From the IMG/VR virus record IMGVR_UViG_3300047564_005880, positions 1 through 55,783 of that record: a stretch of 55,783 bases of DNA. One strand, given 5' to 3'. Positions 8,122 through 54,649 of this stretch are shown here, one piece after another (the stretch's first letter is position 1; every line of letters starts with the position of its first letter). Source of the stretch: a virus. Under the pieces are notes generated by a model, which was not told the DNA's origin, did not search any database, and worked only from the letters and a program-made list of their open reading frames with translations. The position numbers and the translations under genes were made by a program.

Positions 8122-8129
8122 TATTTATA
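8122..8129 (-). promoter_or_regulatory. T4-type late promoter TATAAATA
   Basis: On the minus strand this octamer is exactly TATAAATA, the T4 late promoter element recognised by the gp55 sigma factor. It lies 20 bases before the ATG of the 177-aa virion gene and overlaps the stop region of the 2,387-aa fibre gene. No -35 box is expected for this class. Confidence 0.7.
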
Positions 8130-26127: not shown

Positions 26128-26135
26128 TATTTATA
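26128..26135 (-). promoter_or_regulatory. T4-type late promoter TATAAATA before gp8
   Basis: The minus strand reads exactly TATAAATA here, 20 bases before the gp8 ATG and overlapping the stop codon region of the gp7-like gene. The same spacing is seen at 8122-8129, which supports both as genuine late promoters. Confidence 0.72.
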
Positions 26136-35100: not shown

Positions 35101-37380
35101 TGCAACAATAGGTTCTGAAGTATATCCACTTCCTCCATTTGTTACGTTAATTTCGATAACTCTACCGTCTACTTCAACAGCTCCAGTTGCAGAGGAACCT
35201 TCATACTCCCATCTAATATTTCCATGTACCTGTACACCACTGGTATGAGTTGGAAAAGTGGTAAATGCAGATTGACCAGATTCAAGAGCAACGTATCTAT
35301 TACCATTATATTTTACTCTTGTTCCAATAGCATAGTTTGTATCTAACTGATAATCTGGTTCAAATTCTACAATTGGTGGGTTTGTAATATCGTAGCCATC
35401 GCCACCATTAATTTTTTCAATACCAATCAATCCACCATACTTTTTGCTGGCATTTCCCTTATAAGAGAAAAATGGTACACCGTTTACACCAATACCAATT
35501 TGCCCAACAGGTGTTGGTTGCTTGGTGCTTTTTGTGATTGGTTGTAAAGGAATTCTCTTTAAATATCTTTGGTTTCCTGGGAGAATATCATTTGCACCAA
35601 AAGGACCAATCTTATGAGATGGTATTCCAGTACAAGCTACGATTGCATTATCTGTTGATCTATAGGTATTCTGGATATCTGCAGTAAAATCTTCAATTTC
35701 ATTTCTAATGCTACCAAAATCACTCGTTCCATATGAAAATTCTCTAAGAGCAATAAACTCTTTAGTTGGAGTTGATATTGGAGTCGCTGGAATAAGAATA
35801 TTAAATGTATTTGCAGATCCAACACCAACTACACTATAAGTTGCATTATAAATGTCTTCATCTGCATTTACAATAGTAACTTTGTCATCACGATTTAAAT
35901 CATGATCTTCAACCGTGGTTACAGTGGCAATAACACTCCCATTCGCATTTGGAGATCCAAGAACTATAGAAGTGCCTCTAAATGCTCTTCTTACGTTGTA
36001 GATGAAAGATTTCCAGATAGAATCAATACTATCAAAACCAGGACTGGTTGGAGTTGTAATCTTACTATTTGGCAGATAGTATTTACCAGGAGTGTTCAGT
36101 TTAATTCCTCTAGTTCCACCAAACATTTTGATGGTGATTTTTGAACCATCTAAATTGGAATATCCAAATACTTCGAATGCAGCGATAACTTCATGACCAG
36201 CTACGTGTTCTGCTGGACTTGTATTATCTCTTGCTCTTGTACATCCAATAAATTGGTTTACAGTTTTTTCTGCGTATGAGATGATTTCATCTTCAATACG
36301 AACTTTTCCATTTTGCTCTGGCCAACCGATTGTGGAATCTACGGTAATTACAGTATCGGTCAGAACGTCTCCACCAAGATCATCAGCCAAGATGGTCTTA
36401 TAAGGAGTTACAAAGGTTCCAGCAGAATTATTTGTGTCTACGTCAATTTCATAGATTACACCTTCTTCAGTGTAAATTTCTACAACACTCTTTACATAAA
36501 TTCTAGCAAATTTTACATTTTCGTCAGTTGGATCTTCCTGTTGATATAAAACTTGTCCAACAAGCTCCATGGGATTACCTTCGAGCTTTCTAGCTCTGAT
36601 AACTTCCCTAGAAACATAATATGCATCGGATGGTTTGAATATTCTATCTCGTGGATAATTGATTGACGACTCTACGCCGAATATCGTTCTTAAAATAAAT
36701 TGGAAGGATCTGCTTGTGCCCTTAGATGCATAGAAGTCCTTAATTCTCTTAATAACGACATTTTCCTCAACACCAGAGTTAAAATCTTTTGGGAATGTCG
36801 CGAGATATTGCTCTTTAAATTTTGAGAGGATGAATAATGGGAAAAGGTTATTTAAATTAATGACTTTAGCACCAGTAGCATGACTCGCTGCTTCTGTATA
36901 CTCAAAATTTAGTTCAGCAGCACTACCAATTGATGTTAATCCAGAAAATCCTCTAGCGCAGTTCTGGAATAAAGTGACTCCCTTACCATTATAGTAAATA
37001 ATTTCATCATCAATTAAAAGTAATCCCTCATTAGGAAAATCTCTAGTTCTCTGGACATCAATAGTTGTTGAAGTTTCACTTAAAGCAGAAATGAGAACGG
37101 TTTCCTGAACAAGGTTTGAATACTTGTCAATATTGTAGTAATCATCCCAGTTTTGAATGACATCAACTGGATTTCCCTTTAATTCTTGAGATTTGTAATA
37201 TGCCCTTACAAAGTCAATAAAAGTCTGATAGTCTTCTCTAACAAACGAAGGAAACTGCGAGAAAACTCTATCTGATATCTGAGACTTTGATTCTGGACTA
37301 ACTTCCGATGGAACTGGAGGTACAGTTACAGGAGTGGTTGGAGTAGTCCACTGACCAACTTTCCAGGAGGATGTAGGCAT
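26131..37380 (-). CDS. gp7: gp7-like baseplate wedge protein, hugely expanded (3,749 aa)
   Basis: Residues 41-63 (FSQFPSFVREDYQTFIDFVRAYY) and 202-257 (KRIKDFYASKGTSRSFQFILR, then IFGVESSINYPRDRIFKPSDA) correspond to the C-terminal core of T4 gp7 (NFEAFCEAYIQYL; FYSTKGIEASYKFLFKVLY). The following gp7 block (T4 SYYVMKIKSN...IRFVHPVGFGF) reappears at about residues 2377-2410 (FSYEIASPINIKEW, FAAHPAGFKVFG). About 2,100 residues of GSGYT beta-repeats, including a YHYH domain near 1008-1105, separate the two. After the core come three helical modules (GGN..YDAA.YYV...GEE; DNA about 28740-29760) and beta-rich segments. T4 gp7 is about 1,032 residues. It lies between gp6 and gp8 as in T4. The wedge role is from homology; the role of the insertions is unknown. 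Confidence 0.85.
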   Translation of the reverse strand: MPTSSWKVGQWTTPTTPVTVPPVPSEVSPESKSQISDRVFSQFPSFVREDYQTFIDFVRAYYKSQELKGNPVDVIQNWDDYYNIDKYSNLVQETVLISALSETSTTIDVQRTRDFPNEGLLLIDDEIIYYNGKGVTLFQNCARGFSGLTSIGSAAELNFEYTEAASHATGAKVINLNNLFPLFILSKFKEQYLATFPKDFNSGVEENVVIKRIKDFYASKGTSRSFQFILRTIFGVESSINYPRDRIFKPSDAYYVSREVIRARKLEGNPMELVGQVLYQQEDPTDENVKFARIYVKSVVEIYTEEGVIYEIDVDTNNSAGTFVTPYKTILADDLGGDVLTDTVITVDSTIGWPEQNGKVRIEDEIISYAEKTVNQFIGCTRARDNTSPAEHVAGHEVIAAFEVFGYSNLDGSKITIKMFGGTRGIKLNTPGKYYLPNSKITTPTSPGFDSIDSIWKSFIYNVRRAFRGTSIVLGSPNANGSVIATVTTVEDHDLNRDDKVTIVNADEDIYNATYSVVGVGSANTFNILIPATPISTPTKEFIALREFSYGTSDFGSIRNEIEDFTADIQNTYRSTDNAIVACTGIPSHKIGPFGANDILPGNQRYLKRIPLQPITKSTKQPTPVGQIGIGVNGVPFFSYKGNASKKYGGLIGIEKINGGDGYDITNPPIVEFEPDYQLDTNYAIGTRVKYNGNRYVALESGQSAFTTFPTHTSGVQVHGNIRWEYEGSSATGAVEVDGRVIEINVTNGGSGYTSEPIVAIIGGGASPTNAASAAAQITNGVVTNITITSAGSGYTSVPTISITGGGGSGATGLAVVRGSIKEVHITSPGTNYSYEPQVNLVSGSGAVAYPSILNGRIESIIVTFGGERYFGPPDVVIVGDGVGATAFANVDLTRNIVTDIVVTNKGIGYTPGKTEIFIVYPGVGAQFQTKLTELTYNEAANANELGVSANTFIPRVTFDSSNGASFQGANYLIYGGEYGYMFSPKRLRFLLEDNINSSLVELTPTKHSPILGWAYDGNPIYGPYGYKDKENKSPFNEYKQLTTSYRIKSTRTSLVDGLTDPLGTFIEDYEYVEGLGDLDEYNGRYCVTPEYPNGVYAYFCTIDGVTGNPKFPYFIGPNFYSQANEINWNGNGLQRGFTEDAIRYKAPYLAVDNLIVKRKQLIDRIEFYLALEDTTTIITTETGDFLELAEDGIGYFDYYPSIKGSQADSLYVASTNKYSSSGIDQYLLEGGGSGYKVNDRLIFDEENTGGSGLSAVISSVEGVPVSTASFAADDDDVSVVTLTTTENHYVKIGDLVNVSVDDNLYEREIGVKIIGNKYHFNYFDLQSAKLMKVWQTGVSYQVNDLVYNDVYVYKAKNNGTSGATSPTHTSGTVIDGVGGVEWEYVRVRTDGNLYQGGWSSITGGSNYLNGTYTNVPLTTSGNGVNARATIVVSGGAVTSVTITNSGYGYEVGDTISASNLNLGYNLTPSPGSGFSITLTEVQKEVVFRSNKAHQLRVGDIVNISGINPSAYDNSTYSVVRIDTNRRFVCKRNFANPTAAIVTTAEVYVREPKLQFIDGHRYKFDVSDSSHSGRRLTFSLDPDNTEVFTYKNIFAVENDQITGEQQSITIRILDLPSTFYYFDINGLTTGLYFNLINDPIVGTNTVTEVTDTTIVYELGLEPETSYNLANDVSYITNSIYPKGGVGAITIGDPGRNYSSIPALKDTFRSGAGATAVATIAGPILTVGVTNKGSGYNAASLPTAVMTMPDFVDLTLDSVLGSFVTDEIIVSQTIVGTQTARGKVISWNPSTSILRVQPLRNTTSGAANKGYIMFSTVNVQRNKVYSADSQASIVGLSGTQAQVAAIIPATGPNAGSLESVAVNNPGSNYRVPPQVILDDPYYGGVTEVSITSQNTSANFTAGTYTGVVQKSVAPTGGTGATFTVTIDAVTKDVISVVPDTSGYPYALGDVITISGAQITGGVDVTDDFTVTVTELSFSNPAQTSVLINASIDSVTVTNGGSGYLSSPDVLVSGGNGINAILNAQIVNQGVTNIVIEDGGEQFQSPPVINIVQTKGTGVSLLLKSSDLGQIVKIGGDNITFNYSHDRTLKPELNTTYNLQLIRTQVIDYLDVIDGGFSFVAKPTILLEGGSGSAFSLNPIIQNEVIQEVQVVNPGKGFLSAPTVKAQVSHAFVALRSNSTLNFAYDAKIPTGTKVSLREISGKLPQPLLPNVIYYAIEDTIANGLANNQIRLATSLANANAGTYIVFTSAPTIGNNGVSAFVLDTTDLGARIVAYMKPGEFSVGERIYQGASTASYTAYGFIKEWDPKGRVVSVEIVEGEFRIGEPVFGAESAAFGQIHAFDRADAVFEVSPISISGNRWERTTGFLDLNEQRLYDSNRFQEFSYEIASPINIKEWKNPIKFAAHPAGFKVFGSQIVSTATFKDFKPTPYRDFVTNDLYNWWLPGVPPATLRTFNGTTYFTPKPTANNVAKLSRIDNFALGKADYTATVPTEVLMFGRQLLDVQKILTNIVHKIDTINYRAIPFDGSSSSAVNPATDEITLTNHGLVQDQRVIYNAGGDRFQDARDLIVANIDYIVEETIGHIEATFPALTDGSKPDYDPSICARDTRLVIAAWANDLRYGGNAFTVKAVNSYIGQTVLVADRYGDARNLLRSNKTLIAEEAVGRMLVDPVVGVPAGFPGVPGGNQNCIDDVVDFIESMSYNLAYGGNSEVYDAANLYVTGSHVQGEEDASVKVFEIALELCEDVIQNYPIITSYTSEVQVFDNSISTDPIGFVADRNGDAYDLLQANKVFVANEAVQRYLIANPSFVIPTGNQNCIDDVIDVINAVSKNVGYGGNDHTYDAAAYYVGTSHINGEETETIAIMQIARDLCQNVINNESISVQGSHGLTQTYDYTITVDQGGCAAIKSTIATLFSIVTTAVSTDSMAHATRTGGGGYVNSCQNVVSSMTTLFGILIQAIGTNGNPGNLTGITRTVPVNNILHIGGEELETIAAYNKARDLAILAVNNNLPFTGTYTTRRPFVDLSITYDSGGCANVVSALTTLSQILTEGIDNPGTIPDIDVGFYPNVRTGDPIQGLVSNTAYYVDVVDADTIRLLDAPSGNVLDITSVGSGPAHQIILSVDGINNKFKLRKDSIDISTVIAKTAQKSQLIVSINGIIQNPKGFTVSNDILEFAESPLENSEVLAVYFDRKSYSNVFELDTFGDAIQSFNTTNGLIAGAGYTNGVYTSEPLVNKRGNGTGATANIAVVGGKVVSISIVDGGSGYTNNDIVSATLAGSPTLEFQVEVEDVTFDGVNTTFTSQVGGSNYALPASDNFLLFLNSTLQVKGTEESYTYTGSTITFNEAPLGNMDFYCFYFGKLNLLDDISPFFDNSRKTYILKQSGAPFSIESDDPSIDAAGNLLIFVNGIYQEPGVSYTLRGSLLEFDEAPRAGSNCVLYVFLGSNDDILREDTFNSIDPGDIVKVSSEADERILASISSSTTIDTYEYVGLRPTPAEFTAVVLGGRVAAVTIVNPGLNYENPPILVFTGGGGEGAFAQTTIDPGTGEVTGIINLNPGNGYTSIPKIVPTHPVSIERSQRNRIISNSNALAVTYLTNSITSTSVTINAQNVYWDLTQQIGFPDEGEILIPVYSGGRWRVERILYGSRDVNTNTFTVATNGRGNFGTGPSFGVGYDINVVTGSYTSSGTLCTVNTSGAHNYTTGMSVYLKHTSGTGFDGSYKVNVTSTTQFTVEYPFARTTSGSISILPEIRLRSL
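34590..35245 (-). repeat. GSGYT beta-repeat array inside the gp7-like gene
   Basis: The encoded protein shows successive copies, about 36-45 residues apart, of a module of the form ITxxGSGYTSxPxVxIxGGGGSGAxA, e.g. NGGSGYTSEPIVAIIGGG, SAGSGYTSVPTISITGGG, SPGTNYSYEPQVNL, FGGERYFGPPDVVIVG and NKGIGYTPGKTEIFIV. The same module recurs elsewhere in this gene, in the fibre at 8125-15288 (DNA about 11400-12120), in gp8 and in the edge fibre. The copies are similar in protein but diverged in DNA. Confidence 0.75.
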
Positions 37381-37388: not shown

Positions 37389-39239
37389 TTAGTTATAGCT
37401 AGATTCTGGGATGACACCAGTTCCAGAAACGTTGGAACCGCTAGTAATTACGTCTTCGACAATATTAATTACTGTATTATCTATACCTATTGTCAGATAG
37501 GTTTCTCTAAGAGCAACCAGATCATTTGATCTTGGAACCGCAGAAAGGCGAATCTCATTCTGGGCAAAAGGAGTACCAGAGATGATCAAATCATTAATAA
37601 CTATTTCTCCCAAATCATAATCAACAGATCCCCAAAGACCGTCAATATATTGTCTTTCTCCAGTATCTTTGATATAGAACAGACGGAGTTGACCTTCACC
37701 ATCATCATCGAGATAGTAAGTATTTTGAGTATCACCAGCAAGATTAAATCCAGTGCTGCTTACTGATGCAACGTCAGTAGAAGGAAGGATTCTATTTCCG
37801 TAACAAATCTTGTAGTTTACTCTTGCATTCAGTTGAATTGGAGCATTTTTTCTCATTACCACTCTGGTAATGTTTGAAGTAAACGAAGGTTCTGCATCAT
37901 CGATCAATTTCTGCAGTTTCGAATACTTGAACTTGCCACCAAACTTATTAAACTCAGATCCAGCATTTAAAGCTGCCAGAGTTGCATAAACAATCGTTTT
38001 TAAATCTGCTTGATCCCTACGAGTTCTGTTTGGATCAAAATAAACAAAGGTTACGAGATCAATATAGAGAACAGATGGGTCGATAATTTTTGGTTCAACC
38101 GCAGCTACAGAATAATCTCTGAGTTTTTTGAGAATATTGTTTTTTTCTGATAAAGACAGTTTATCGGCATTTTTTGGTTTGATTGCCAAGAAAACTTTAC
38201 CGTATTCTGGGGGATCTGCCTCTTCGCCACCGTAGGCAGCGATAGATTGGATATTTGGGTAGATCTGTGGGAGAAGAACTTCGTAATCTCTCGTTGAAAC
38301 AGCTCTTCCAAAAGAAGAATAGAATTTGGGAGCAGAAAACTTAATAGATTCTGTTGTTTCTTGGAAAGCACCGCCATCTGGAGGTGTAATCAAGTTAACT
38401 GAAATTCCAGTAGTTATACTATTGTTATTATTGTCTCTGATTGTTCCAATAAAGTCAAAGTTAGTCAGACCGTTTGATCCAGGTCCAGAACTAGTCGTGT
38501 AAGTGACATCAACAACGTCTCCATCAACTAACGCCTTACCCAGAACATCATCACCAAAAGTAATCTCTGGTCTTCCGTACTCAGACTCCTCTAAAAAGAA
38601 GACTTTTGATGATCCGTTGATTTTTGTGATGTCAGTTGCTAAAAGATATGCCTCAGTTGTCGTTCCACTAGTAACTTCTACCTTCAAACTAGTGGTATCG
38701 ATGTTTTGGTTGGTTAAAATGAATCTTTGTCTTTGAGTTTCGTCTCTAACAAAACTGTCTACTAAAAATACACCTTCGTAAAGGGGCAAATTAGTAAAAG
38801 TAGCAATTCCAGACAGACTATCTACTGATGCACTCTGATCTGCAATTGTGGAGAAGACATAGTTATCATTATCTGCTCCAATAAAGTTTAAAACAAGTCC
38901 TCTGGACAGAGTAACTGTTTTTGGATAAGGAAATGCGGTTGCAACTGTAATGGTCGTTGGCACAATCGCAGATCTAGCACTCTTAGGAGTGTATCCGATC
39001 ATTCTAGCTAGTTTTACGACATTCTCTCTGAGAACAGCTGTTTCCAGAAAGTTCTCATTTACAATAAGGTTTGCATTAACTGCAGAATAGTAAGTATTGT
39101 AAGCAAGAATGTCAAGAAGTACGGTCAGCGAAGATCCTTCAAAGTCATAATCAGAAAACTGATCTTGAGCTTTGAGATAATCCTTAATTTGTGCCTTAAT
39201 CTCGTTAAATTCTAACGAGGTGACCTGATTGAACGCCAT
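37389..39239 (-). CDS. gp6: Baseplate wedge protein gp6 (616 aa)
   Basis: The N-terminus (LEFNEIKAQIKDYLKAQDQF, DFEGSSLTVLLDILAYNTYY, ENVVKLARMIGY) is the signature of gp6/baseplate J-like proteins, which form the dimeric inner ring of the contractile-tail baseplate. The middle shows IYPNIQSIAAYGGEEADPPE and the C-terminal half is beta-rich. Length 616 compares with 660 in T4. The ATG overlaps the gp25 stop by one base and the stop is 9 bp before the gp7-like start, the T4 order 25-6-7-8. Strong call. Confidence 0.95.
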   Translation of the reverse strand: MAFNQVTSLEFNEIKAQIKDYLKAQDQFSDYDFEGSSLTVLLDILAYNTYYSAVNANLIVNENFLETAVLRENVVKLARMIGYTPKSARSAIVPTTITVATAFPYPKTVTLSRGLVLNFIGADNDNYVFSTIADQSASVDSLSGIATFTNLPLYEGVFLVDSFVRDETQRQRFILTNQNIDTTSLKVEVTSGTTTEAYLLATDITKINGSSKVFFLEESEYGRPEITFGDDVLGKALVDGDVVDVTYTTSSGPGSNGLTNFDFIGTIRDNNNNSITTGISVNLITPPDGGAFQETTESIKFSAPKFYSSFGRAVSTRDYEVLLPQIYPNIQSIAAYGGEEADPPEYGKVFLAIKPKNADKLSLSEKNNILKKLRDYSVAAVEPKIIDPSVLYIDLVTFVYFDPNRTRRDQADLKTIVYATLAALNAGSEFNKFGGKFKYSKLQKLIDDAEPSFTSNITRVVMRKNAPIQLNARVNYKICYGNRILPSTDVASVSSTGFNLAGDTQNTYYLDDDGEGQLRLFYIKDTGERQYIDGLWGSVDYDLGEIVINDLIISGTPFAQNEIRLSAVPRSNDLVALRETYLTIGIDNTVINIVEDVITSGSNVSGTGVIPESSYN

Positions 39240-39628
39240 TATGGTTTAAATACTAAATCTATGCTTTCTATGGTGACAGGCGTACCAAGAATTAGGTACG
39301 AAATCGAAACTTGCAGGTCATTTATTGACTCATCGAATTTAGTAAAGACATCATAACAAGCAACTCTTGGTTCATAAGTGTTGATTGTCTTCTTAATTTG
39401 ATCTGAAATCTCACTCGACAAACCTTCAGTGTAGTTTTCGAAAAGATACTTAATGACGTTTCCACCAAACTGAGGATAAAATGGCTTCTCAAAAAAATTG
39501 TACCTAACGATGTTTTTTACAGACTCTTTAATCGCTTTCTCATTCTTAAGAGTCAGAACATCATTAGTTACTGGATTTTTCTCAAAGGTAAGGCTAAAGT
39601 CCCTAAAGGACTTTGAGATAATAGCCAT
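39239..39628 (-). CDS. gp25: Baseplate wedge protein gp25 (129 aa)
   Basis: The 129 residues fit the gp25/GPW family (T4 gp25 is 132): SFRDFSLTFEKNP, TNDVLTLKNEKAIKESVKNI, then FEKPFYPQFGGN and a final strand (TPVTIESIDLVF). The EKPF.P.FG..V block is the family hallmark. gp25 joins the wedge at the sheath-baseplate interface and helps initiate sheath assembly. A near-consensus late promoter (GATAAATA) lies 23 bp before its ATG. Gene order with gp6 supports the call. Confidence 0.95.
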   Translation of the reverse strand: MAIISKSFRDFSLTFEKNPVTNDVLTLKNEKAIKESVKNIVRYNFFEKPFYPQFGGNVIKYLFENYTEGLSSEISDQIKKTINTYEPRVACYDVFTKFDESINDLQVSISYLILGTPVTIESIDLVFKP

Positions 39629-40125: not shown

Positions 40126-40443
40126 TCAACCGCCGATGTAGACCTTTTTTGCTCCTTCTGGGAGTCCATGATTACCAACAGCATCGCCATCAGCTACATC
40201 AGAACCCAATTTTCCGCATTTTTTGCCATTTACGAACACGGTATCCGACCCAGAAACGATTTTTCGGTCATTTCCAGAGTGAGTTGTGCTATCACAAGAG
40301 TGAGAAGCGTACTGATCATCAAGTCTACCGATCCCTTTACCGCCTGCAAAGACATTATTAGATGCCTGAACGAGCTGTGTGGGTGGAAAACAACCATGTC
40401 CAGTGCTGTAAGCGTCTTTTACTGCTGGTGTAGTCGCTGTCAT
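40126..40443 (-). CDS. PAAR-domain tail-spike tip protein (105 aa)
   Basis: The 105 residues show a PAAR-type layout: spaced glycine/valine turns (VQASNNVFAGGKGIGRLDD), metal-ligand-like His/Cys (SHSCDSTTHSGND), then SGSDTVFVNGKKCGKLGSDV and a final VYIGG. PAAR proteins cap the spike of contractile tails (T4 gp5.4) with a metal-bound tip that pierces the membrane. Its position upstream of gp25 and gp6 fits. Confidence 0.85.
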   Translation of the reverse strand: MTATTPAVKDAYSTGHGCFPPTQLVQASNNVFAGGKGIGRLDDQYASHSCDSTTHSGNDRKIVSGSDTVFVNGKKCGKLGSDVADGDAVGNHGLPEGAKKVYIGG

Positions 40444-41103: not shown

Positions 41104-41328
41104 CTAAGAGCTACGCGCCGAACGGGGTTTACGCGGTTTTTTAACCTCTAACGTATTTAACCGTTCGTCGTGGTCACAGACAATATCTACCAGTCTTTCA
41201 TATTCCTCTGAGCCAGGGCGGCGCATCATCAACTTTGAGTCGTTCACACGCTGCTCCAAGGCATCCAGCCGCGCCCAGAGAACTTTAATCAACTCACTGT
41301 CTTCCACTGACCAATCGCTCCTTTCCAA
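41104..41328 (-). CDS. Small helical protein with basic tail (74 aa)
   Basis: The 74 residues are mainly helical and charged (DSELIKVLWARLDALEQRV; EYERLVDIVCDHDERLNTLE), suggesting a short coiled coil, with a basic tail (KKPRKPRSARSS) that could bind nucleic acid. Its start overlaps the end of the previous gene by 35 bp. No family recognised. Confidence 0.6.
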   Translation of the reverse strand: MERSDWSVEDSELIKVLWARLDALEQRVNDSKLMMRRPGSEEYERLVDIVCDHDERLNTLEVKKPRKPRSARSS

Positions 41329-41506
41329 TATAATTCTCAGACAAATCGTAATGCATGACCCAATTTTCGGTAACGATGTAATAACCTGTCAGATTTTTCC
41401 CATCGTCTGTCCAACCATAGCTAATCACTCTCTCATTAATTTCTTCATGATCTAGAAGCAGATTCGTGTGAAGGTAGTGATTGTAGCGTTGGTGAAGATT
41501 GATCAT
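41294..41506 (-). CDS. Small unknown protein coupled to the PPTase gene (70 aa)
   Basis: I place the start at the ATG 41504-41506 (MINLHQRYNHYLHTNLLL), which overlaps the PPTase stop as ATGA; a longer reading from 41572 would run deep into the PPTase gene. The protein has an amphipathic first half and a strand-rich second half (GYYIVTENWVMHYDLSE). It is probably translated by reinitiation after the PPTase. Family unknown. Confidence 0.6.
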   Translation of the reverse strand: MINLHQRYNHYLHTNLLLDHEEINERVISYGWTDDGKNLTGYYIVTENWVMHYDLSENYIGKERLVSGRQ

Positions 41507-41970
41507 ACTGCAACTGCCCCCTTGATGTCTGGTGGAAGATCTTCTAGTGTAATTATAGTTCCCTCTGGACATTTTGCAAGATTCGTTGCAATCGTTAACT
41601 TATCACGTTTCACAGCTGCTTCCTTGCTGGTCCAGATTTCATAAAATTTTTCTCTGTCAGAGGTGATCTCTGAGGGATGAAAAAATCTTCGCGAAATTTG
41701 CTCAAAGGGGCGCTTTCGCATATACTCTATATCTATGCCAATTGGCATGGCAGCTACCGCGATGGCAACATAATTGCGGGTGTCGGACTTACTCCAATAC
41801 ACACTGGCAGGTTCTTTGCAGGACAGGCGACCTTCTAGGAAGTCAGCTATGCAAGCTCGGATAATCTTGGAGTGGGCGATTTGGGGTTCCTCAAAAAGGT
41901 ATACGAGAAAATTTTGCCCCAAAAAAATTTCTGAGATAGGGATCCTAAGTTTTTCGATGAATGATGTCAT
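41503..41970 (-). CDS. 4'-phosphopantetheinyl-transferase-like protein (155 aa)
   Basis: Sfp/AcpS-superfamily signatures are visible: GIDIEYM at about residues 78-84 (the Mg-binding GIDIE motif) and FYEIWTSKEAAVK at about 108-120 (the W..KEA..K motif with catalytic Glu/Lys). These enzymes move phosphopantetheine from CoA to a serine of carrier proteins. The upstream SHS-type block of Sfp enzymes appears as WSKSDTRNYVAIAVA, with Lys in place of the CoA-contacting His. At 155 residues it is shorter than Sfp (about 224). No acyl carrier protein is visible in the window, so the substrate would be a host or distant phage carrier. It opens the late baseplate run; a TATAAA-like box lies about 35-40 bp upstream. 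Motifs are clear; activity is inference. Confidence 0.82.
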   Translation of the reverse strand: MTSFIEKLRIPISEIFLGQNFLVYLFEEPQIAHSKIIRACIADFLEGRLSCKEPASVYWSKSDTRNYVAIAVAAMPIGIDIEYMRKRPFEQISRRFFHPSEITSDREKFYEIWTSKEAAVKRDKLTIATNLAKCPEGTIITLEDLPPDIKGAVAV

Positions 41971-42077
41971 GATTAGTTCGGTCGCGAATGCAAGACTTTA
42001 TAGATTAGCTCTTTGGGTCCCATATAACATGGGCTAGGGGGGCGACCCGCCACGGGGGCGGGCACTGTCCCTGAGGG
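41971..42077. promoter_or_regulatory. Intergenic leader with hairpins between early and late modules
   Basis: This gap has a TATAAAG element on the minus strand before the PPTase gene, a small CCCAT-N5-ATGGG hairpin, and a strong G+C hairpin (CCCGCC ... GGGCGGG, about 42049-42063). It marks the compositional switch between the G+C-rich small-gene tract and the late genes and may terminate the gene ending at 42078. Confidence 0.4.
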
Positions 42078-42266
42078 TCACTCGAAGGTGGGGAGGGCGG
42101 CGATCGCTTCATCGTGGTAGCGGTCAGCGTAGCATCCTGCCCACCACCAACCCTCAGCAGGGCGGATCTGACCAGCGTAGACTGTCTGGGGTGAGGTTTC
42201 GGTCTTGCGAGCGACCCACATGGTCTCGCGGGTTTCGAGGTCGCTGCACTGAGAGTAGATTGCCAT
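42078..42266 (-). CDS. Small unknown protein (62 aa)
   Basis: The start is taken at ATG 42264-42266 (MAIYSQCSDLETRETMWVA), because a TACAAT -10 box (42287-42292) and leader lie just upstream; a longer ORF to 42317 would place the promoter inside the gene. The protein is Trp/Tyr-rich near the C-terminus (AEGWWWAGCYADRYHDEAI). No Shine-Dalgarno; the leader ends CACCG-ATG. Family unknown. Confidence 0.6.
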   Translation of the reverse strand: MAIYSQCSDLETRETMWVARKTETSPQTVYAGQIRPAEGWWWAGCYADRYHDEAIAALPTFE

Positions 42267-42313
42267 CGGTGGGGTGTGAACTGAGAGAATTGTAGAGCAT
42301 CTAGGGGCAGGCG

Positions 42314-42535
42314 TCAACCCCTCGCTGCTGCCTCCATGCGTTCGTAGAATGCCAGGAACTTACGGGTCACCGTGGGGGAGAGGTCACGCGATCCGCTGCG
42401 ACCATGGATAGGGAGGGGGAAGGTCTCGCCCATGCTAGGATGGGAAATCTTGGCGTGACCGCTGCGACCGTCTCGGATGCTGCCGCCGATCTTGGTGACC
42501 ATGCTGCGAGCGGTGGTGATCTTGAGGGTCTTCAT
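42314..42535 (-). CDS. HicA-like toxin-fold protein (73 aa)
   Basis: The pattern K.GGSIRDGRSGHAKISHP...FPLPIHG......LSPTVTRKFL fits the HicA mRNA-interferase fold: a GSH-like His (H27), HP, a P.HG turn (H44-G45) and an L.P.T...L final helix. HicA proteins are RNA-cleaving partners of HicB antitoxins. No HicB-like partner is visible beside it, and phage HicA-like proteins can be regulators rather than toxins. Its ATG overlaps the stop of a 26-codon ORF (TGATG), implying coupling. Moderate confidence; the key His is present but the family is small and variable. Confidence 0.6.
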   Translation of the reverse strand: MKTLKITTARSMVTKIGGSIRDGRSGHAKISHPSMGETFPLPIHGRSGSRDLSPTVTRKFLAFYERMEAAARG

Positions 42536-42615
42536 CAGTAGGAGGGGTGAATGATGGTGAAGATGACAACCTTGCGATTGAAGGGGCGCAGGGCGCGGTT
42601 GAGAAGGCGAAGCAT
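42535..42615 (-). CDS. Tiny ORF coupled to the HicA-like gene (26 aa)
   Basis: A 26-codon ORF (MLRLLNRALRPFNRKVVIFT...) starts 2 bp after the stop of the 47-aa gene and ends TGATG, overlapping the HicA-like start. The product is basic and hydrophobic. It may be a real micropeptide or simply a translation bridge to the HicA-like gene. Low confidence. Confidence 0.35.
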   Translation of the reverse strand: MLRLLNRALRPFNRKVVIFTIIHPSY

Positions 42616-42617
42616 GA

Positions 42618-42761
42618 TCAGGGGGCGATGTGAGCAGGGGAACCGCAGGAGCGATAGAAGTCTACCATGCGCTCCGCTTCCTCTAGGGTCTTGAAGAACT
42701 GGGAGCGCCATTCGCAGGCGTTGTATGGGGTCTGATAACGGACTTCGTAGCGGGTGAGCAT
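42618..42761 (-). CDS. Small unknown protein (47 aa)
   Basis: A 47-residue ORF (MLTRYEVRYQTPYNACEWRS ... RMVDFYRSCGSPAHIAP) with beta-strand then helix character, as in small phage inhibitors, but no family recognised. A TAGACT -10-like box lies 22 bases before the ATG and the leader has no Shine-Dalgarno, as for its neighbours. Confidence 0.55.
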   Translation of the reverse strand: MLTRYEVRYQTPYNACEWRSQFFKTLEEAERMVDFYRSCGSPAHIAP

Positions 42762-42801
42762 CGGTCGTTTGCTGATGTGGTTAGTCTAGAGCTAGGGGCG
42801 A

Positions 42802-42978
42802 TCAGTCGCGGTCGCTGATGTGCCAGGTCCCCCACTGTCCCTCGGGTGCCTGATAGGTGCCAGCGGCGACGGCATCGCGGATCGCTTGGCGCTGTGCCTC
42901 CTCACGGGCGAGGCGCTCGGTGTACTCTGCCATCACCATGGCGATCAGTTCGTCGTGAGTCATCTTGGTTTTGTTCAT
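42802..42978 (-). CDS. Small helical protein (58 aa)
   Basis: A 58-residue protein: long charged helix (ELIAMVMAEYTERLAREEAQ, RQAIRDAVAAGTY) then GQWGTWHISDRD. Unknown family. The TAGACT box ends only six bases before the ATG, so if that is the promoter the mRNA would be nearly leaderless; an in-frame ATG five codons later is an alternative start. Confidence 0.6.
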   Translation of the reverse strand: MNKTKMTHDELIAMVMAEYTERLAREEAQRQAIRDAVAAGTYQAPEGQWGTWHISDRD

Positions 42979-43020
42979 GCTGTTAGTCTACAGGGTCAGG
43001 GGGCAGGATCGGGGGGCAGA

Positions 43021-43045
43021 GTGGACAGTGCCTCAACTGTCACAG
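43021..43045 (-). repeat. CTGTGACAGTT-family palindrome, copy 1
   Basis: The minus strand reads CTGTGACAGTT, then GAGGC, then ACTGTCCAC. The stop codon of the 53-aa gene (43040-43042) lies inside the left arm. It shares 21 identical bases with copy 4 at 44288. Confidence 0.7.
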
Positions 43046-43201
43046 GATCTGGAGGTCGTCCAGGATCTTGCCATCCTTACGGATCTCAGCATAGGTGAAC
43101 TCATCAGCGAGCACGTAGAGCAGGCGCTGTGCCTCAGCCCAGGTATCAACCGAGATCGATTCGTAGGGGGCAGAGGGAACGTAGACTGAGAAGCGGGACA
43201 T
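43040..43201 (-). CDS. Small unknown protein (53 aa)
   Basis: Start chosen at ATG 43199-43201 (MSRFSVYVPSAPYESISV), because the longer frame to 43237 would run through the promoter repeat at 43211-43234. The protein has an N-terminal strand, a helix (WAEAQRLLYVLADEF) and ends EIRKDGKILDDLQIL. Its TGA is in the 3' palindrome. No Shine-Dalgarno precedes it. Family unknown. Confidence 0.6.
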   Translation of the reverse strand: MSRFSVYVPSAPYESISVDTWAEAQRLLYVLADEFTYAEIRKDGKILDDLQIL

Positions 43202-43210
43202 GGGTTGGTT

Positions 43211-43234
43211 CGTTTCGATGCCCTTAGTATAGAG
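43211..43234 (-). promoter_or_regulatory. Duplicated promoter/leader element, copy A
   Basis: Identical over 24 bp to 43491-43514. On the minus strand it has CTATACTAAGGGC (-10 TATACT) followed by CATCGAAACG, leading into the 53-aa gene. Exact duplication before two unrelated genes indicates a mobile or selected promoter cassette. Confidence 0.65.
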
Positions 43235-43259
43235 CATCAGGGGGGCAGCGGTAGGGTCG

Positions 43260-43284
43260 GTGGACAGTAGCTAGGGTGTCACAC
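43260..43284 (-). repeat. CTGTGACAGTT-family palindrome, copy 2
   Basis: Minus strand GTGTGACACC...ACTGTCCAC, directly after the stop of the 64-aa gene (43287-43289). A 13-bp string (plus strand TGTCACACGGTCA) is repeated at 43558-43570. Confidence 0.6.
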
Positions 43285-43286
43285 GG

Positions 43287-43481
43287 TCAGTTGGCGAACC
43301 ATGCCTCGTGGGCAAGATCGGATGCCAACTCCTCTAGGTTGTCTTCGGTCAGGCGGGAACCGTAGAACTCCAGGATCTCAGGGTCCAGGCGGTCCAGGTC
43401 GCATCCGTAGAGGTCCACTGCCTGACGCTCTGCTAGGACCAGCAGATCATCGTAGAGGGAGAGCAGGCGGTCTTCGGTCAT
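43287..43481 (-). CDS. Small acidic helical protein (64 aa)
   Basis: A 64-residue acidic helical protein (RLLSLYDDLLVLAERQAVDL ... LTEDNLEELASDLAHEAW). Its composition resembles other acidic miniproteins in the window (44494-44706 and 45495-45695), which could be host-protein inhibitors or DNA mimics; this is inference. The promoter/leader is copy B of the 24-bp repeat, 10 bp before the ATG. Confidence 0.65.
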   Translation of the reverse strand: MTEDRLLSLYDDLLVLAERQAVDLYGCDLDRLDPEILEFYGSRLTEDNLEELASDLAHEAWFAN

Positions 43482-43490
43482 GAGTCGTTT

Positions 43491-43514
43491 CGTTTCGATG
43501 CCCTTAGTATAGAG
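43491..43514 (-). promoter_or_regulatory. Duplicated promoter/leader element, copy B
   Basis: A perfect 24-bp copy of 43211-43234, with TATACT as the minus-strand -10 box about 23 bases before the ATG at 43481. Confidence 0.65.
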
Positions 43515-43524
43515 GGTCAGGGGG

Positions 43525-43662
43525 TCAGTGGCGAGCGATCTGTGCCACCTTGTCTGCTGTCACACGGTCAAGGGTCTGGGCGAGGGTCAGGACCGATCCT
43601 AGAGTTTGTGAGAACATCAGGAGCAATCCTGCCACCAGAGCTAAGCGAATCGTATTTGCCAT
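43525..43662 (-). CDS. Small membrane or secreted protein (45 aa)
   Basis: A 45-residue ORF with a hydrophobic helix (IRLALVAGLLLMFSQTLGSV, residues 5-24) then a polar tail (LDRVTADKVAQIARH). It may be a membrane anchor or a signal peptide. Its 3' part contains a copy of the palindrome family (43540-43565). Family unknown. Confidence 0.55.
   Translation of the reverse strand: MANTIRLALVAGLLLMFSQTLGSVLTLAQTLDRVTADKVAQIARH
43540..43565 (-). repeat. CTGTGACAGTT-family palindrome, copy 3
   Basis: Minus strand GTGTGACAGC...AGGTGGCACAG. It lies inside the 3' end of the 45-aa ORF rather than after its stop, an exception that may mean the ORF call is wrong. Confidence 0.5.
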
Positions 43663-43667
43663 TTGTA

Positions 43668-43985
43668 TCAGTTAAGACGCATCCCAGAGAAGAAAGGAAT
43701 TGCACCGCCAGAGGGTACACTAACGTACCAATTCCAGTCCTTCTGAAATACACGCTCACCAGGGATTCCATGCTCGGAGAGAATAGCATTCAGGCGAGAC
43801 TTGGTGGTAGCAGACTGATGCCCACCATCGAACAATTCAATCCAGGTCTCACCAATTCGGGCGATCAGATTGCCGAACAGGTAGACATCGGAAACATGCG
43901 AACATGCGACGACTTCGGTATTGTCACGCTTGAAATCTTTGCCAGCAGTGATAGCGGCATTCATCAGACGCTCAATCTTACGCAT
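43668..43985 (-). CDS. Conserved-looking unknown protein (105 aa)
   Basis: A 105-residue mixed alpha/beta protein (IERLMNAAITAGKDFKRDNT; SDVYLFGNLIARIGETWIEL; TTKSRLNAILSEHGI; VFQKDWNWYVSV). The regular pattern suggests a small globular enzyme-associated or regulatory domain, but no family is named. A TATAAT box (44021-44026) lies 35 bp before the ATG; the leader is C-rich (CCCCCC-ATG) with no Shine-Dalgarno. Confidence 0.72.
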   Translation of the reverse strand: MRKIERLMNAAITAGKDFKRDNTEVVACSHVSDVYLFGNLIARIGETWIELFDGGHQSATTKSRLNAILSEHGIPGERVFQKDWNWYVSVPSGGAIPFFSGMRLN

Positions 43986-44020
43986 GGGGGGAAAGTGAAG
44001 TGGTTTGGTGAACTGAAAGA

Positions 44021-44026
44021 ATTATA
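44021..44026 (-). promoter_or_regulatory. -10 box TATAAT
   Basis: Exact TATAAT on the minus strand before the 105-aa gene; no clear TTGACA at -35. Confidence 0.5.
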
Positions 44027-44074
44027 GGATGCCCAGGGCGTTCAGCAACCAGGCGTAGACCAGATTAGGAAGTG

Positions 44075-44245
44075 TCACAGTCCGTTCAGCATGTCGTGGA
44101 TTGCCTCCTGATACTCCTCCCAGGTGGAGAAGCGATCCTGCAGGTGAGCAGGCACGACCCTAGGGGCAGGGGTCATGGATTGGCGGATCTCCCGCTCGGT
44201 GTACCCCTTCTGGCAGAGGTGGGCGATGTAAGGGTTGTTTGTCAT
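44075..44245 (-). CDS. Small unknown protein (56 aa)
   Basis: A 56-residue ORF (MTNNPYIAHLCQKGYTEREI ... STWEEYQEAIHDMLNGL), mostly helical. An exact TATAAT (44252-44257) ends six bases before the ATG, so the transcript could begin at the start codon. TGA lies in the half-palindrome AGTGTCACAG. Family unknown. Confidence 0.6.
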   Translation of the reverse strand: MTNNPYIAHLCQKGYTEREIRQSMTPAPRVVPAHLQDRFSTWEEYQEAIHDMLNGL

Positions 44246-44271
44246 GCAGACATTATAGGCACGGGTCGCGA

Positions 44272-44288
44272 CCGATCGGGGAGATCGG
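44272..44288 (-). terminator. CCGATC hairpin between two small genes
   Basis: CCGATC (44272-44277), a five-base loop and GATCGG (44283-44288) form a perfect stem between palindrome copy 4 and the TATAAT at 44252. No T-run, so it may be a terminator without U-tract or an operator at about -35. Confidence 0.45.
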
Positions 44289-44312
44289 TGGACAGTGCCT
44301 CAACTGTCCTAG
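44288..44312 (-). repeat. CTGTGACAGTT-family palindrome, copy 4
   Basis: Minus strand CTAGGACAGTT, GAGGC, ACTGTCCAC; the TAG stop of the 36-aa gene (44309-44311) is its first bases. Confidence 0.68.
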
Positions 44313-44419
44313 CTCTGACCCTCCAAACCTGCTCCGATCGCGAGCAATACCAGGTAGGAGATCCTAGCACATTTGTACCATCGGGTCTTGGTGTAGGCGG
44401 GGACCTTGCGACGTGCCAT
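44309..44419 (-). CDS. Small membrane protein (36 aa)
   Basis: A 36-residue ORF: basic N-terminus (MARRKVPAYTKTRWYK) then one hydrophobic helix (ISYLVLLAIGAGL). This is the layout of phage single-pass miniproteins. A TAGACT-like box lies 23 bases upstream. Stop is in the palindrome. Function unknown. Confidence 0.5.
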   Translation of the reverse strand: MARRKVPAYTKTRWYKCARISYLVLLAIGAGLEGQS

Positions 44420-44493
44420 AGAGTCAGACGATGGGGGAACAGTCTACCACAGGTTCGTGGTGATACAGAGCGAAGCGGCCGCCCTGAGCTATA

Positions 44494-44706
44494 CTAACTC
44501 AGCAGGTCTTCGATGAACTCCTCACCATACGATTCCAGGATCTCAGTCTCTAACTCCTCTGGGGTGTAACTGTTAAGATTCTCCACCAGAGTATCAAACA
44601 CAAACTGCTCCATGGTTTTCATGTCCATACCGTCCATGATTTGCTCAGCATAACGCTCAACAATTGTGCTGAACTCATCTGTCCAAACTTTAGCGTTGTT
44701 ACCCAT
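44494..44706 (-). CDS. Small acidic helical protein (70 aa)
   Basis: The 70 residues are strongly acidic and helical (EFSTIVERYAEQIMDGMDMK; EELETEILESYGEEFIEDLL). No family recognised; it resembles the neighbouring acidic miniproteins in character. It ends AGT-TAG, and the 14-bp end sequence (GCTATACTAACTCA on the plus strand, 44488-44501) is repeated at the end of the 66-aa gene (45489-45502). Confidence 0.7.
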   Translation of the reverse strand: MGNNAKVWTDEFSTIVERYAEQIMDGMDMKTMEQFVFDTLVENLNSYTPEELETEILESYGEEFIEDLLS

Positions 44707-44748
44707 GATTGAATGATTAAGTGTAAAGAATTGAGGGAAAGGTTGCCC

Positions 44749-45063
44749 TTAGGCGAAGACAACCTCTGCAACTTGCGACGTGGTGAGCATAACGCACTCC
44801 TGACGGAATTGGCGCTTCCACTCATCACCAACTGCTCGCAGATTGTCGAGCATAGCTACAGCGCCGAGCGAACGCTCATCAACAGTCACGCTGATGATCT
44901 TAGTCTGCTCAATCTCACCTTTCCAGATACCGATGCCATCGGTGATAGTGCAGCAGGGCATCAGAACGCACACGGTATCTTTAAGGAAAGATTGCCACAT
45001 TTGCTCGGTCACAGTACCAGCGTCGGGGATGTTGCGACCGAGGGAGAGAGTGTGGGTTTGCAC
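44749..45063 (-). CDS. DUF3574-like protein (104 aa)
   Basis: Read from a GTG at 45061-45063, the protein is VQTHTLSLGRNIPDAGTV, then QMWQSFLKDTV, ITDGIGIWKG, TKIISVTV and WKRQFRQECVML. The order FGR.IP...V....W..FL, G.W......K.....V, ...Y...F.QE.V fits DUF3574 as I recall it. A longer ATG reading (to 45144) would overlap the palindrome and the -10-like CATACT, so the GTG is preferred. Its role in bacteria is unknown. Family call is moderate. Confidence 0.62.
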   Translation of the reverse strand: MQTHTLSLGRNIPDAGTVTEQMWQSFLKDTVCVLMPCCTITDGIGIWKGEIEQTKIISVTVDERSLGAVAMLDNLRAVGDEWKRQFRQECVMLTTSQVAEVVFA

Positions 45064-45120
45064 TTGGTTTGTTTGAACTGAAGGTAGTATGGAGCAGATT
45101 GGGGGGGATTGCAAGTGGGT

Positions 45121-45146
45121 CTGTGCCACTTCCCGAACTGTCACAC
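45121..45146 (-). repeat. CTGTGACAGTT-family palindrome, copy 5
   Basis: Minus strand GTGTGACAGTTCGGG-AAGTGGCACAG, spanning the stop of the 66-aa gene (45141-45143). Confidence 0.7.
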
Positions 45147-45341
45147 CGACTGATCGATCAGCGCCTGTGCTGTGATATTACAATTAACCTCAGCGAATGC
45201 ATCGCGAACTTTCTCCTGTACCATATCAAATACGCTCTCATTCATCCACTCTGGGCACTCATCATGGAATTGCACAAGTATATTCAACACCTCCAATTCT
45301 TCGGCGTTGAATGCTTCGAGCAGGGCGAATCGGTTAAACAT
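45141..45341 (-). CDS. Small acidic helical protein (66 aa)
   Basis: Start at ATG 45339-45341 (MFNRFALLEAFNAEELEVLN) follows a TATACA box; a longer reading overlaps the promoter region. Helical and acidic throughout (NESVFDMVQEKVRDAFAEVN), perhaps a DNA-mimic or inhibitor type, but unproven. Stop lies in palindrome copy 5. Confidence 0.6.
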   Translation of the reverse strand: MFNRFALLEAFNAEELEVLNILVQFHDECPEWMNESVFDMVQEKVRDAFAEVNCNITAQALIDQSV

Positions 45342-45387
45342 TTGAATTTCGTGTATGTGTATACAATACATGATCACGAGCACAAAA

Positions 45388-45431
45388 CAACCCCCACTGT
45401 GACACTTCGCAAACTGGCACAGGAGGGGTTG
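45388..45431 (-). terminator. Strong terminator containing palindrome copy 6
   Basis: CAACCCC and GGGGTTG flank a CTGTG...CACAG stem (14 bp with two mismatches); the minus strand continues with TTTTG. The inner part is copy 6 of the palindrome family (45397-45422). It lies between the 45495 gene and the 45341 gene. Confidence 0.7.
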
Positions 45432-45494
45432 CTGATATCGGTTCTGTGATATAGGGTGATGAGCAGTTAAGAATTCGAGCGGCAGTTAGCTATA

Positions 45495-45695
45495 CTAACT
45501 CACGCCGACTTCGTAACACAAACCCTCCAGAACATAGTACTGAGAGAGTAACTCTAACTCAGGGCATGAGTTAATTAGATCGGTGTCTAGAAGATACTGC
45601 ACCAGATCTACACTCTCCTCAGCATCTAGACCAACATCGCTATACTTTTCGTATAGCACTTGGTACTTATCGAAGGTTGTTAGATCAGTCTTCAT
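45495..45695 (-). CDS. Small acidic helical protein (66 aa)
   Basis: Start at ATG 45693-45695 (MKTDLTTFDKYQVLYEKYSD). Acidic and helical (LDAEESVDLVQYLLDTDLI; ELELLSQYYVLEGLCYEV). It overlaps the end of the basic 60-aa gene by 11 bp. Unknown family. Confidence 0.65.
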   Translation of the reverse strand: MKTDLTTFDKYQVLYEKYSDVGLDAEESVDLVQYLLDTDLINSCPELELLSQYYVLEGLCYEVGVS

Positions 45696-46440: not shown

Positions 46441-47037
46441 TTAATGAGAAACCCTCCGCCAATAGTCCAGAATGAGACTAATTCTCTCCGCGTTTCCATG
46501 ATTTAAGACTCTATGCATACTACCTGAAGTAAAACACAAGAGCTTACCCTCTGTTTGTACTCTAGACTCGTCTTTGAGTTCTAGTACACTATCACTACTG
46601 ACTATTGGTAACTGTACTCTTAGATTGATTACATTTGGTCCTGGTTCTGGATCATAATGCCATCCTAGAGATGCAGTTGGATACAGTACAGTAAAACCAC
46701 TATATGTCATGGCATCTATCTCTCTGAGTATTCTACATGTCTTAGGCATGTGAATAGCATTAGGGTTATAGATGTCACCTTGAAAGTATAGTGGTGCTAG
46801 ACCCCATTTCGTTCTAGCTGATACTGGTGGTGCAGTGAAGTAGGACATGTGATTGATTTCATATCCTTGCCCTTCATTAGAGATCGTCTGTGCTTGATAG
46901 GATGTAAAATCACGAAACTCGATCTTGTGTTGTACTGTATCCCATTCTCTTCGAATTACAGGATACAGTTCTTCTAACACATGTAGTTTAGGATGTACGT
47001 CTTCAGGTCGTAAGAAGGTGCTTTGAGGTTGTACCAT
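46441..47037 (-). CDS. Aspartyl/asparaginyl beta-hydroxylase-like 2OG-Fe(II) oxygenase (198 aa)
   Basis: Read from ATG 47035-47037 (MVQPQSTFLRPEDVHPKLHV), the protein shows HYD at 127-129 in GWHYDPEPGPN, R140 before LPI, H175 in SGSMHRVLNHG and R185 in ERISLILDY, the Fe-ligand and 2OG-binding pattern of the Asp_Arg_Hydrox family. Such enzymes hydroxylate Asp, Asn or other substrates using 2-oxoglutarate and oxygen; phage targets are unknown. The longer frame to 47115 overlaps the previous gene too far. It closes its operon before the AT-rich cluster. Confidence 0.78.
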   Translation of the reverse strand: MVQPQSTFLRPEDVHPKLHVLEELYPVIRREWDTVQHKIEFRDFTSYQAQTISNEGQGYEINHMSYFTAPPVSARTKWGLAPLYFQGDIYNPNAIHMPKTCRILREIDAMTYSGFTVLYPTASLGWHYDPEPGPNVINLRVQLPIVSSDSVLELKDESRVQTEGKLLCFTSGSMHRVLNHGNAERISLILDYWRRVSH

Positions 47038-47197
47038 ATTGAGAATAGAGCTTGGCATCGTTGATTGCTTGCTGGTCATTATTGAATGGACCATAGGACA
47101 GATCTTCAACACCATCGTATGACCAATAGATACCCTTCCTCTTCTTGAACACGTTAATCGTCAGTTCTTGATCTAGGGCGGTGATGATAGTTTTCAT
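47003..47197 (-). CDS. Small unknown protein (64 aa)
   Basis: A 64-residue protein (MKTIITALDQELTINVFKKR; YDGVEDLSYGPFNNDQQAIN). Its ATG overlaps the stop of the 53-aa gene as ATGA, so it is translationally coupled. Mixed alpha/beta, family unknown. Confidence 0.65.
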   Translation of the reverse strand: MKTIITALDQELTINVFKKRKGIYWSYDGVEDLSYGPFNNDQQAINDAKLYSQYGTTSKHLLTT

Positions 47198-53726: not shown

Positions 53727-54233
53727 TCAGGATCTCTGGATGTTTCCCGAGATGATCACACGGTCATGGTCGCAGGTGTGTGGGGGCACATAATGCAGGT
53801 CCGTGGAATTGAAGAATACCAATTTGCCGATGGTGGGCACGACTACGTTAGCAGGTGGCATCCAAGGGCGATGGGGTTCTGGAAAGATCAGTGGAGCACA
53901 CTGATCGCAGCAATCAAGATAGTAACAGAAGGACTGTACATAGTTTGGATCTGGATGCTGGTGGATTACAGCATAATCGCCTTTGCGGTACACTGCTCCC
54001 CACATTTCACAAACCTCAACACATCCATGGCGATCCATTAGCAACTGATTAGCAAGAACGTTGATGTGCTCAGTTAGATCCCATAGAGGTTCAAGTGTGT
54101 GAATTGTCCATCCAGTTACGTCACACTTGAGGCTAGACTGCCTGTCATTCTCATCACCTAACCCGTACACAATCGATTTGAAAACGGGTTCGGGTTCGTA
54201 ATAGTATTCTGCGATATTAACCCTGTGTGGCAT
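53727..54233 (-). CDS. 2OG-Fe(II) oxygenase (168 aa)
   Basis: MWGAVYRKGDYAVIHQHPDPNY (residues 78-99) has the W....G.....H.HP..... of 2OG-FeII_Oxy_5-type proteins, followed by SFCYYLD, LIFPEP, IGKLVFFNS, H147 (DLHYVPPH) and R158 (DHDRVIISGN). These enzymes are common in cyanophages; substrates are unknown. The start (MPHRVNIAEYYYEPEPVFKS) overlaps the SprT-like gene's end by 76 bp in another frame. Confidence 0.78.
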   Translation of the reverse strand: MPHRVNIAEYYYEPEPVFKSIVYGLGDENDRQSSLKCDVTGWTIHTLEPLWDLTEHINVLANQLLMDRHGCVEVCEMWGAVYRKGDYAVIHQHPDPNYVQSFCYYLDCCDQCAPLIFPEPHRPWMPPANVVVPTIGKLVFFNSTDLHYVPPHTCDHDRVIISGNIQRS

Positions 54234-54649
54234 TTACAAAACTCCTCGTAGATCAATCTCTCTGTACCATGCGCTTCAACTTCCCAGGGCTCATCTTCAT
54301 AAGGTGTGTCCTCAGAAACTTTGCGAGAGTACCAATAGTTCTTGTTGTATCTAGTTACATGCTCACGCAGGATGCGCTGCTTGACATGAATCAACTCATG
54401 GAATAATACAGTGAGATAGTCTTCGATGTCAAGACGATTGTGGATCTCAACAACAAACTCGCGAGGACGAGAGCAAGAGTCAACAATACTGCAGCACCCA
54501 TACATGCCTTCGCGAGCTAATCCACGCGCTATGAAATCGACAGCGAACTTGTAGCGATCCCCAATATATTTGGAAATGTACCACTGAGCAGCGAGGGATG
54601 TGATTCGCTTGCGGCAATTAGATCCAGTAAACGAGAAGGAAACAGACAT
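54158..54649 (-). CDS. SprT-like zinc metalloprotease (163 aa)
   Basis: Contains the zinc motif HELIH (residues 84-88, in VLFHELIHVKQ) and a downstream PYEDEPWEVEAHGTE (117-130) that supplies a likely third ligand, as in SprT-like proteins. The N-terminus read from ATG 54647 (MSVSFSFTGSNCRKRITSLA) lacks a Shine-Dalgarno, and another hydrophobic frame (54529-54696) overlaps it. A frameshifted or wrongly chosen start is possible. Domain call is strong, start is weak. Confidence 0.72.
   Translation of the reverse strand: MSVSFSFTGSNCRKRITSLAAQWYISKYIGDRYKFAVDFIARGLAREGMYGCCSIVDSCSRPREFVVEIHNRLDIEDYLTVLFHELIHVKQRILREHVTRYNKNYWYSRKVSEDTPYEDEPWEVEAHGTERLIYEEFCKCHTGLISQNTITNPNPFSNRLCTG

Follow-up and report, generated by a model that had tools for sequence, protein, structure and literature searches.

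A compact Sfp-like phosphopantetheinyl transferase in uncultured T4-like cyanophages, probably paired with a phage acyl carrier protein

The stretch of DNA analysed here (the window) is a 55,783-base IMG/VR virus contig, and it encodes a compact Sfp-like 4′-phosphopantetheinyl transferase (PPTase) of 155 aa at 41503..41970 on the minus strand. We consider it likely that this enzyme is active and arms the acyl carrier protein (ACP) of the same phage, converting it from the apo to the holo form, probably late in infection and with less dependence on the host PPTase. The open reading frame, which starts with ATG, was found where the original prediction had placed it, and the family assignment made there is borne out by profile, fold and residue conservation. 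The source record is classed as linear and is probably a fragment. By its sequence the contig is a T4-like cyanophage, because its gp6, gp25 and gp8 homologues are 57–77% identical to those of Prochlorococcus phage P-HM1; its source is a virus of aquatic cyanobacteria.

A profile search, which had been proposed as a check, matches the protein to Pfam PF01648 (ACPS) with 36.8 bits (E 4.4e-9), above the gathering score of 25. PHROG family 23098 (phrog_23098) matches with 111 bits, while the NCBIfam PPTase models give weak matches, none at its cut-off, and no equivalog cut-off is reached. The family is encoded at 74 IMG/VR loci, and dN/dS between the window gene and its relatives is about 0.15–0.3 (Nei–Gojobori), so the gene is under purifying selection. 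The Pfam profile, the PHROG match, the 74 viral loci and the dN/dS place the open reading frame far beyond chance, and profile, Asp-(Glu)-Glu metal triad and alpha/beta fold all assign its product to the 4′-phosphopantetheinyl transferase superfamily (PF01648).

Both motifs on which the assignment was originally based are present. GIDIE occupies residues 78–82 and opens a segment from G78 to T103 (41662..41739, minus strand) that also holds the invariant residues R87, R95 and F97, and the second motif reads W113-T-S-K116-E117-A118-A-V-K121 (41608..41634, minus strand). D80, E82, W113, K116, E117, A118 and K121 are invariant in 40 of 40 aligned phage sequences, and when the profile of these sequences is compared with PDB sequences, Sfp (1qr0, 4mrt) is the sole match (E 2e-10). 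The phage residues D80, E82 and E117 align with Sfp D107, E109 and E151, which are the Mg2+ ligands of that enzyme (PMC4103896), and the W/KEA-type signature has been described for Sfp-type PPTases (PMC5605751). The catalytic Glu and Lys, whose failure to align had been named as a reason to abandon the assignment, both align with Sfp.

A further claim, that the Sfp S-H-S block is changed to S-K-S, is off by one register. Single-sequence and 40-sequence profile alignments agree in placing the phage W-S/N-K-S-D-T on Sfp F-N-I-S-H-S, and the counterpart of Sfp S89-H90-S91 is S62-D63-T64 (41779..41787, minus strand). S62 and D63 are invariant in 40/40 sequences and K61 varies to T or R. The S-H-S block is common and is not among the metal ligands.

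An AlphaFold2 model built with 40 window- and locus-derived sequences has a mean pLDDT of 88.4 and a pTM of 0.83. Its best 34 PDB matches by Foldseek are all PPTases, as are the listed PDB matches at Z ≥ 8. When aligned to Sfp, the best solved match, with VIA-align (Z 12.1, rmsd 2.8, 128 residues, 25% identity), model residues 21–155 run along Sfp 1–206; the phage chain, although about 70 residues shorter, therefore contains both halves of the Sfp pseudodimer. For AcpS and fungal PPT domains the match is confined to the second half of the phage model (residues 76–155 for AcpS, Z 6–7). With both half-domains in the model, the protein differs from the single half-domain chain of about 120 aa that defines the AcpS type, and the structure prediction that had been suggested as a check points to an Sfp-like fold. 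The protein has the two half-domains in one chain and the W/KEA signature with Lys of the Sfp-type (group II) enzymes, and lacks their typical length and the S-H-S block before GIDIE. Sfp-type PPTases are typically about twice the length of AcpS (PMC5605751); as 155 aa falls below this, we name the protein "Sfp-like, compact" and place it in the superfamily only.

The window carries a P-HM1-type synteny block on both sides of the PPTase gene. Downstream, all on the minus strand, lie an open reading frame of about 70 aa (41294..41506), a small conserved homologue of PHM1_079 (41104..41328) that is found in nearly all PPTase loci, a PAAR-motif protein (40126..40443; PF05488, phrog_281), a gp25-like baseplate wedge protein (39239..39628; phrog_261, 57% to P-HM1 gp25) and a gp6-like baseplate wedge protein (37389..39239; phrog_219, 69% to P-HM1 gp6). 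The first of these begins with an ATG at 41506 that overlaps the PPTase stop by ATGA (41506–41503); it has no Pfam match, and a similar open reading frame follows the PPTase in contig L010. The order PPTase, 079, PAAR, gp25, gp6, gp7 is kept in nearly all loci, contig permitting. On the upstream side the block is marked by a 2OG-Fe(II) oxygenase homologous to PHM1_043 (53727..54233, minus strand; PF13759) and by a PHM1_042 homologue (54236..54649, minus strand), the last block marker in the window. Relatives have their ACP gene another 13–17 kb upstream of this marker, a position past the end of the window (55783).

The PPTase gene had been described as the head of the late operon. It does open a same-strand run into PAAR, gp25, gp6, gp7 and gp8, but more same-strand open reading frames lie upstream of it, and a late promoter directly before the gene was rejected because no late-promoter-like TATAAATA motif occurs there. 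The window contains two TATAAATA motifs, a count not above chance expectation. One (26128–26135, minus strand) is directly upstream of gp8, and the other (8122–8129, minus strand) is just downstream of a 2387-aa open reading frame and upstream of a 177-aa one at 7568–8101; each is a possible T4-type late promoter. The structural region contains giant open reading frames on the minus strand at 8125–15288 (2387 aa), 17936–24592 (2218 aa) and 26131–37380 (3749 aa), the first with a Laminin_G_3 (ConA-like lectin) domain.

The GC content rises sharply to 50–60% just upstream of the PPTase gene (41970–45500), against 37–44% within and downstream of it. The same step is seen in the related contigs L102, L104, L114, L118 and L119, so that it represents a conserved border with a hypervariable region made up of small genes. 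A chimeric assembly at this step, which falls at the gene start, was rejected because the step recurs in related contigs and synteny markers are present on either side of it. Further upstream, the window encodes an aspartyl/asparaginyl beta-hydroxylase-like protein (46441–47115, minus strand), in the same region as the PPTase and the 2OG-Fe(II) oxygenase, and a 416-aa helicase (51326–52576, minus strand) that matches the central part of a PHROG DNA-helicase profile of 986 positions.

Orthologues of the PPTase occupy the same genomic place in Prochlorococcus phages P-HM1 (PHM1_077), P-HM2 (PHM2_076) and MED4-213 (CPMG_00044). The first two are annotated as "4′-P-pantetheinyl transferase" and the third as "hypothetical"; the earlier remark that no phage PPTase role is established is incomplete in this respect, since the P-HM1 and P-HM2 proteins are also named in Sullivan et al. 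2010 (PMC3037559). The window protein fits the T4-GC500 / phrog_23098 family, with homology over most of its length and the same downstream neighbours (079, PAAR, gp25 and gp6). Across 50,697 phage records, clear PPTase homologues occur in P-HM1, P-HM2 and MED4-213, and these three are also the phages with near-full-length ACP homologues. Bacterial relatives of the PPTase (84,980 genomes) are distant, covering part of the chain at up to about 46% identity (best 43% over 64 residues). Recent capture from a host was rejected, as these bacterial relatives are partial and distant and the phage ACPs constitute one deep clade that excludes the sampled cyanobacterial ACPs.

The ACP of P-HM1 (T4-GC457, 158 aa, 18565–19041 of P-HM1) is encoded on the strand of the PPTase, adjoins cpeT and lies upstream of the fibre genes. 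It is matched by PF00550 and scores 70.5 bits with the TIGR00517 acyl-carrier model (cut-off 70.45). Its predicted structure has an ACP-like helix pattern, with S60 of the DSL motif at the start of helix 60–74, and a low-confidence C-terminal tail. All 69 distinct phage ACP sequences retain the DSL attachment serine, and the phage helix II (DSLDMVELVMFLEECFGIEIPDE) closely resembles that of cyanobacterial ACPs. That no carrier protein is visible holds for the window, where one was rejected because PF00550 finds none at E up to 10; a search of the rest of the genome for a carrier with a DSL motif had been recommended, and in relatives it does turn up such an ACP, 23–28 kb upstream.

Phage ACPs also vary around this motif. 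Those of five PPTase-bearing phages (L205, L206, L099, L100 and L012) read L[DE][AL]DSLD and those of two PPTase-free contigs (L058 and L064) read LMLDSLD, and MLDSLD is common overall, being present in 29 of the 69; this residue might reflect the PPTase on which an ACP relies. Insertions of variable content occupy the gap between ACP and cpeT (L210:6183–10134, L213:8985–11506, L217:17358–18535, L100:4452–4946). They encode 2OG-Fe(II) oxygenases, in L213 a transaldolase-like protein, and a conserved protein of 225–245 aa, one member of which was tested and has no Pfam match.

We asked of each long PPTase contig whether it reaches the ACP slot. All five records that do so (P-HM1, P-HM2, MED4-213, G005 and G006) carry the ACP 23–28 kb upstream of the PPTase and on the same strand; G005 has 200,309 bases and a PPTase 54% identical to that of the window, and G006 has 83,427 bases and one 70% identical. 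Eight further PPTase contigs whose upstream ends were checked all stop short of the slot, six of them between gene 034 and the fibre gene. The other two, G008 and G011, end 1.7–1.9 kb past cpeT, and the ACP lies 2.8–4.4 kb past cpeT in G006 and G005; G011 was therefore rejected as a PPTase contig without an ACP, as it stops at 1.9 kb, before the slot. The window itself extends about 1.1 kb beyond the 042 homologue. The slot would be 12–16 kb further on, and the phage from which the window derives would be expected to carry an ACP gene there.

Two contigs of 77–87 kb, G030 and G031, contain the ACP and the marker order with no PPTase before gene 079, and a PPTase of another type was rejected in both (PF01648, none at E up to 10). 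The ACP can therefore evidently be served by another PPTase, presumably that of the host. The dependence is one-sided: the PPTase always occurs with the ACP in records that are long enough, and the ACP sometimes occurs without the PPTase. Such a pattern is expected of a PPTase that is accessory to the ACP and whose place the host PPTase can take. As the co-occurrence lies within one phage lineage, shared descent explains part of it, and the counts are not independent events. PPTase and ACP are probably a viral pair.

In the mechanism that we favour, the PPTase would use CoA and Mg2+ to move 4′-phosphopantetheine onto the invariant DSL serine of the phage ACP (CoA + apo-ACP(phage) → holo-ACP(phage) + 3′,5′-ADP). 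The reaction would probably take place late in infection, a timing suggested by the position of the gene before the baseplate genes, and the phage would be freed from reliance on the host enzyme. In Synechocystis a single, indispensable PPTase activates the fatty-acid ACP (PMC5605751); with host proteins decaying, a copy supplied by the phage could thus relieve a bottleneck. Host fatty-acid-synthesis enzymes, or host acyl-ACP chemistry, would then load the holo-ACP; the former would be the simplest suppliers because of the likeness in helix II. Counting against this explanation are the invariant Asp in place of Sfp His90, the window's end ahead of the ACP slot, the two ACP contigs that lack the PPTase, and the lack of any recognisable phage enzyme for loading or using the ACP. 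No AMP-binding loading enzyme was found in five related records and no user or loader is recognisable among the annotated P-HM1 genes. Pfam searches of ten conserved proteins encoded between ACP and PPTase name nothing beyond a 2OG oxygenase and a DUF1281_C domain.

The substrates first suggested for the enzyme were a host ACP, a peptidyl carrier or a virion protein, and the ACP of this lineage makes each of them less likely than the phage's own carrier. Of these, action mainly on the host would keep its fatty-acid ACP in the holo form, or shift CoA use, during shutdown of host expression, in the manner of other cyanophage metabolic genes. Sfp-type enzymes are promiscuous and Synechocystis has just one PPTase (PMC5605751), and the similarity of helix II between host and phage ACPs also fits this reading. 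We nevertheless judge it unlikely, as it leaves unexplained why every long-enough PPTase record has a phage ACP with an invariant serine. The phage ACPs also form a deep clade separate from those of hosts, and the PPTase has no close cellular relative.

More speculative, and rather doubtful, is a private viral pathway in which the holo-ACP is the platform for building or holding an acyl or other group, which is perhaps hydroxylated by neighbouring 2OG-Fe(II) oxygenases and delivered to a target in the virion or envelope. The idea stems from the 2OG-Fe(II) oxygenases located between ACP and cpeT in several relatives, which are its basis and not evidence for it. If true, it would be a phage-encoded modification route for which we found no described precedent.

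The PPTase fold could also belong to a protein that has ceased to transfer phosphopantetheine, perhaps a factor that binds CoA or ACP or associates with the virion. D63 in the place of Sfp His90, the short N- and C-terminal parts that leave the chain about 70 residues below Sfp, and the location directly upstream of baseplate genes would all suit such a factor, but a non-catalytic protein has no need of three invariant metal ligands and an invariant KEA..K, and the same genomes encode an ACP with an invariant modification serine; we regard this as improbable. Least credible, and very improbable, is that the enzyme modifies a carrier-like domain of a virion or tail protein instead of the free ACP, which would suit the conserved position next to PAAR and baseplate genes and the great length of gp7 and the fibres, but PF00550 finds no carrier domain in the window and only the free ACP in P-HM1, G005 and G006.

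The pairing of PPTase and ACP has been known since 2010, when "ACP and its synthetase (ACPS)" were listed for P-HM1 and P-HM2 (PMC3037559), and the window gene is an added family member from a different, uncultured branch. A 2023 review counted the phage ACP in 2 of 153 cyanophages (PMC10452541). In the literature searched we found no functional study of the pair, and the main text of the P-HM2 infection transcriptome report mentions neither PPTase nor ACP (PMC5082946). Our analysis extends the pair from two isolates to a wide set of uncultured phages and fixes the enzyme type as Sfp-like and compact. Phages with an ACP and its arming enzyme would have a central cofactor step of lipid metabolism under their own control, in photosynthetic cells that are very abundant, and what a cyanophage does with its own ACP is a question directly testable in the P-HM1 or P-HM2 / MED4 system.

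Among known systems, Sfp of Bacillus subtilis (1qr0, 4mrt) has, like the phage protein, an Asp-Glu-Glu triad, W..KEA..K and a two-part pseudodimer fold; it differs in its length of about 225 residues and in His90, which is Asp in the phage protein. AcpS-type holo-ACP synthases (about 120 aa) belong to the same superfamily, and the expected product would be the same if the phage substrate is a fatty-acid-type ACP, whereas AcpS aligns with one half of the phage chain, which contains both. Free ACPs of Serratia Ackermannviridae (e.g. 3M), Olleya phage Harreka_1 and Pseudomonas phage HRDY3 are likewise phage-encoded PP-binding proteins, but with only partial similarity to the cyanophage ACP, and tblastn with the window protein detects no PPTase in those records. 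The closest comparison is with the T4-GC500 PPTases of Eurybiavirus (P-HM1, P-HM2 and MED4-213), which are 39–43% identical to the window protein and share its gene neighbourhood, with a TM of 0.88 between the predicted folds of the MED4-213 and window proteins. The window PPTase differs from them in its branch, in the higher GC upstream and in a longer N-terminus, which it has in common with its close relatives, and no ACP lies within the window.
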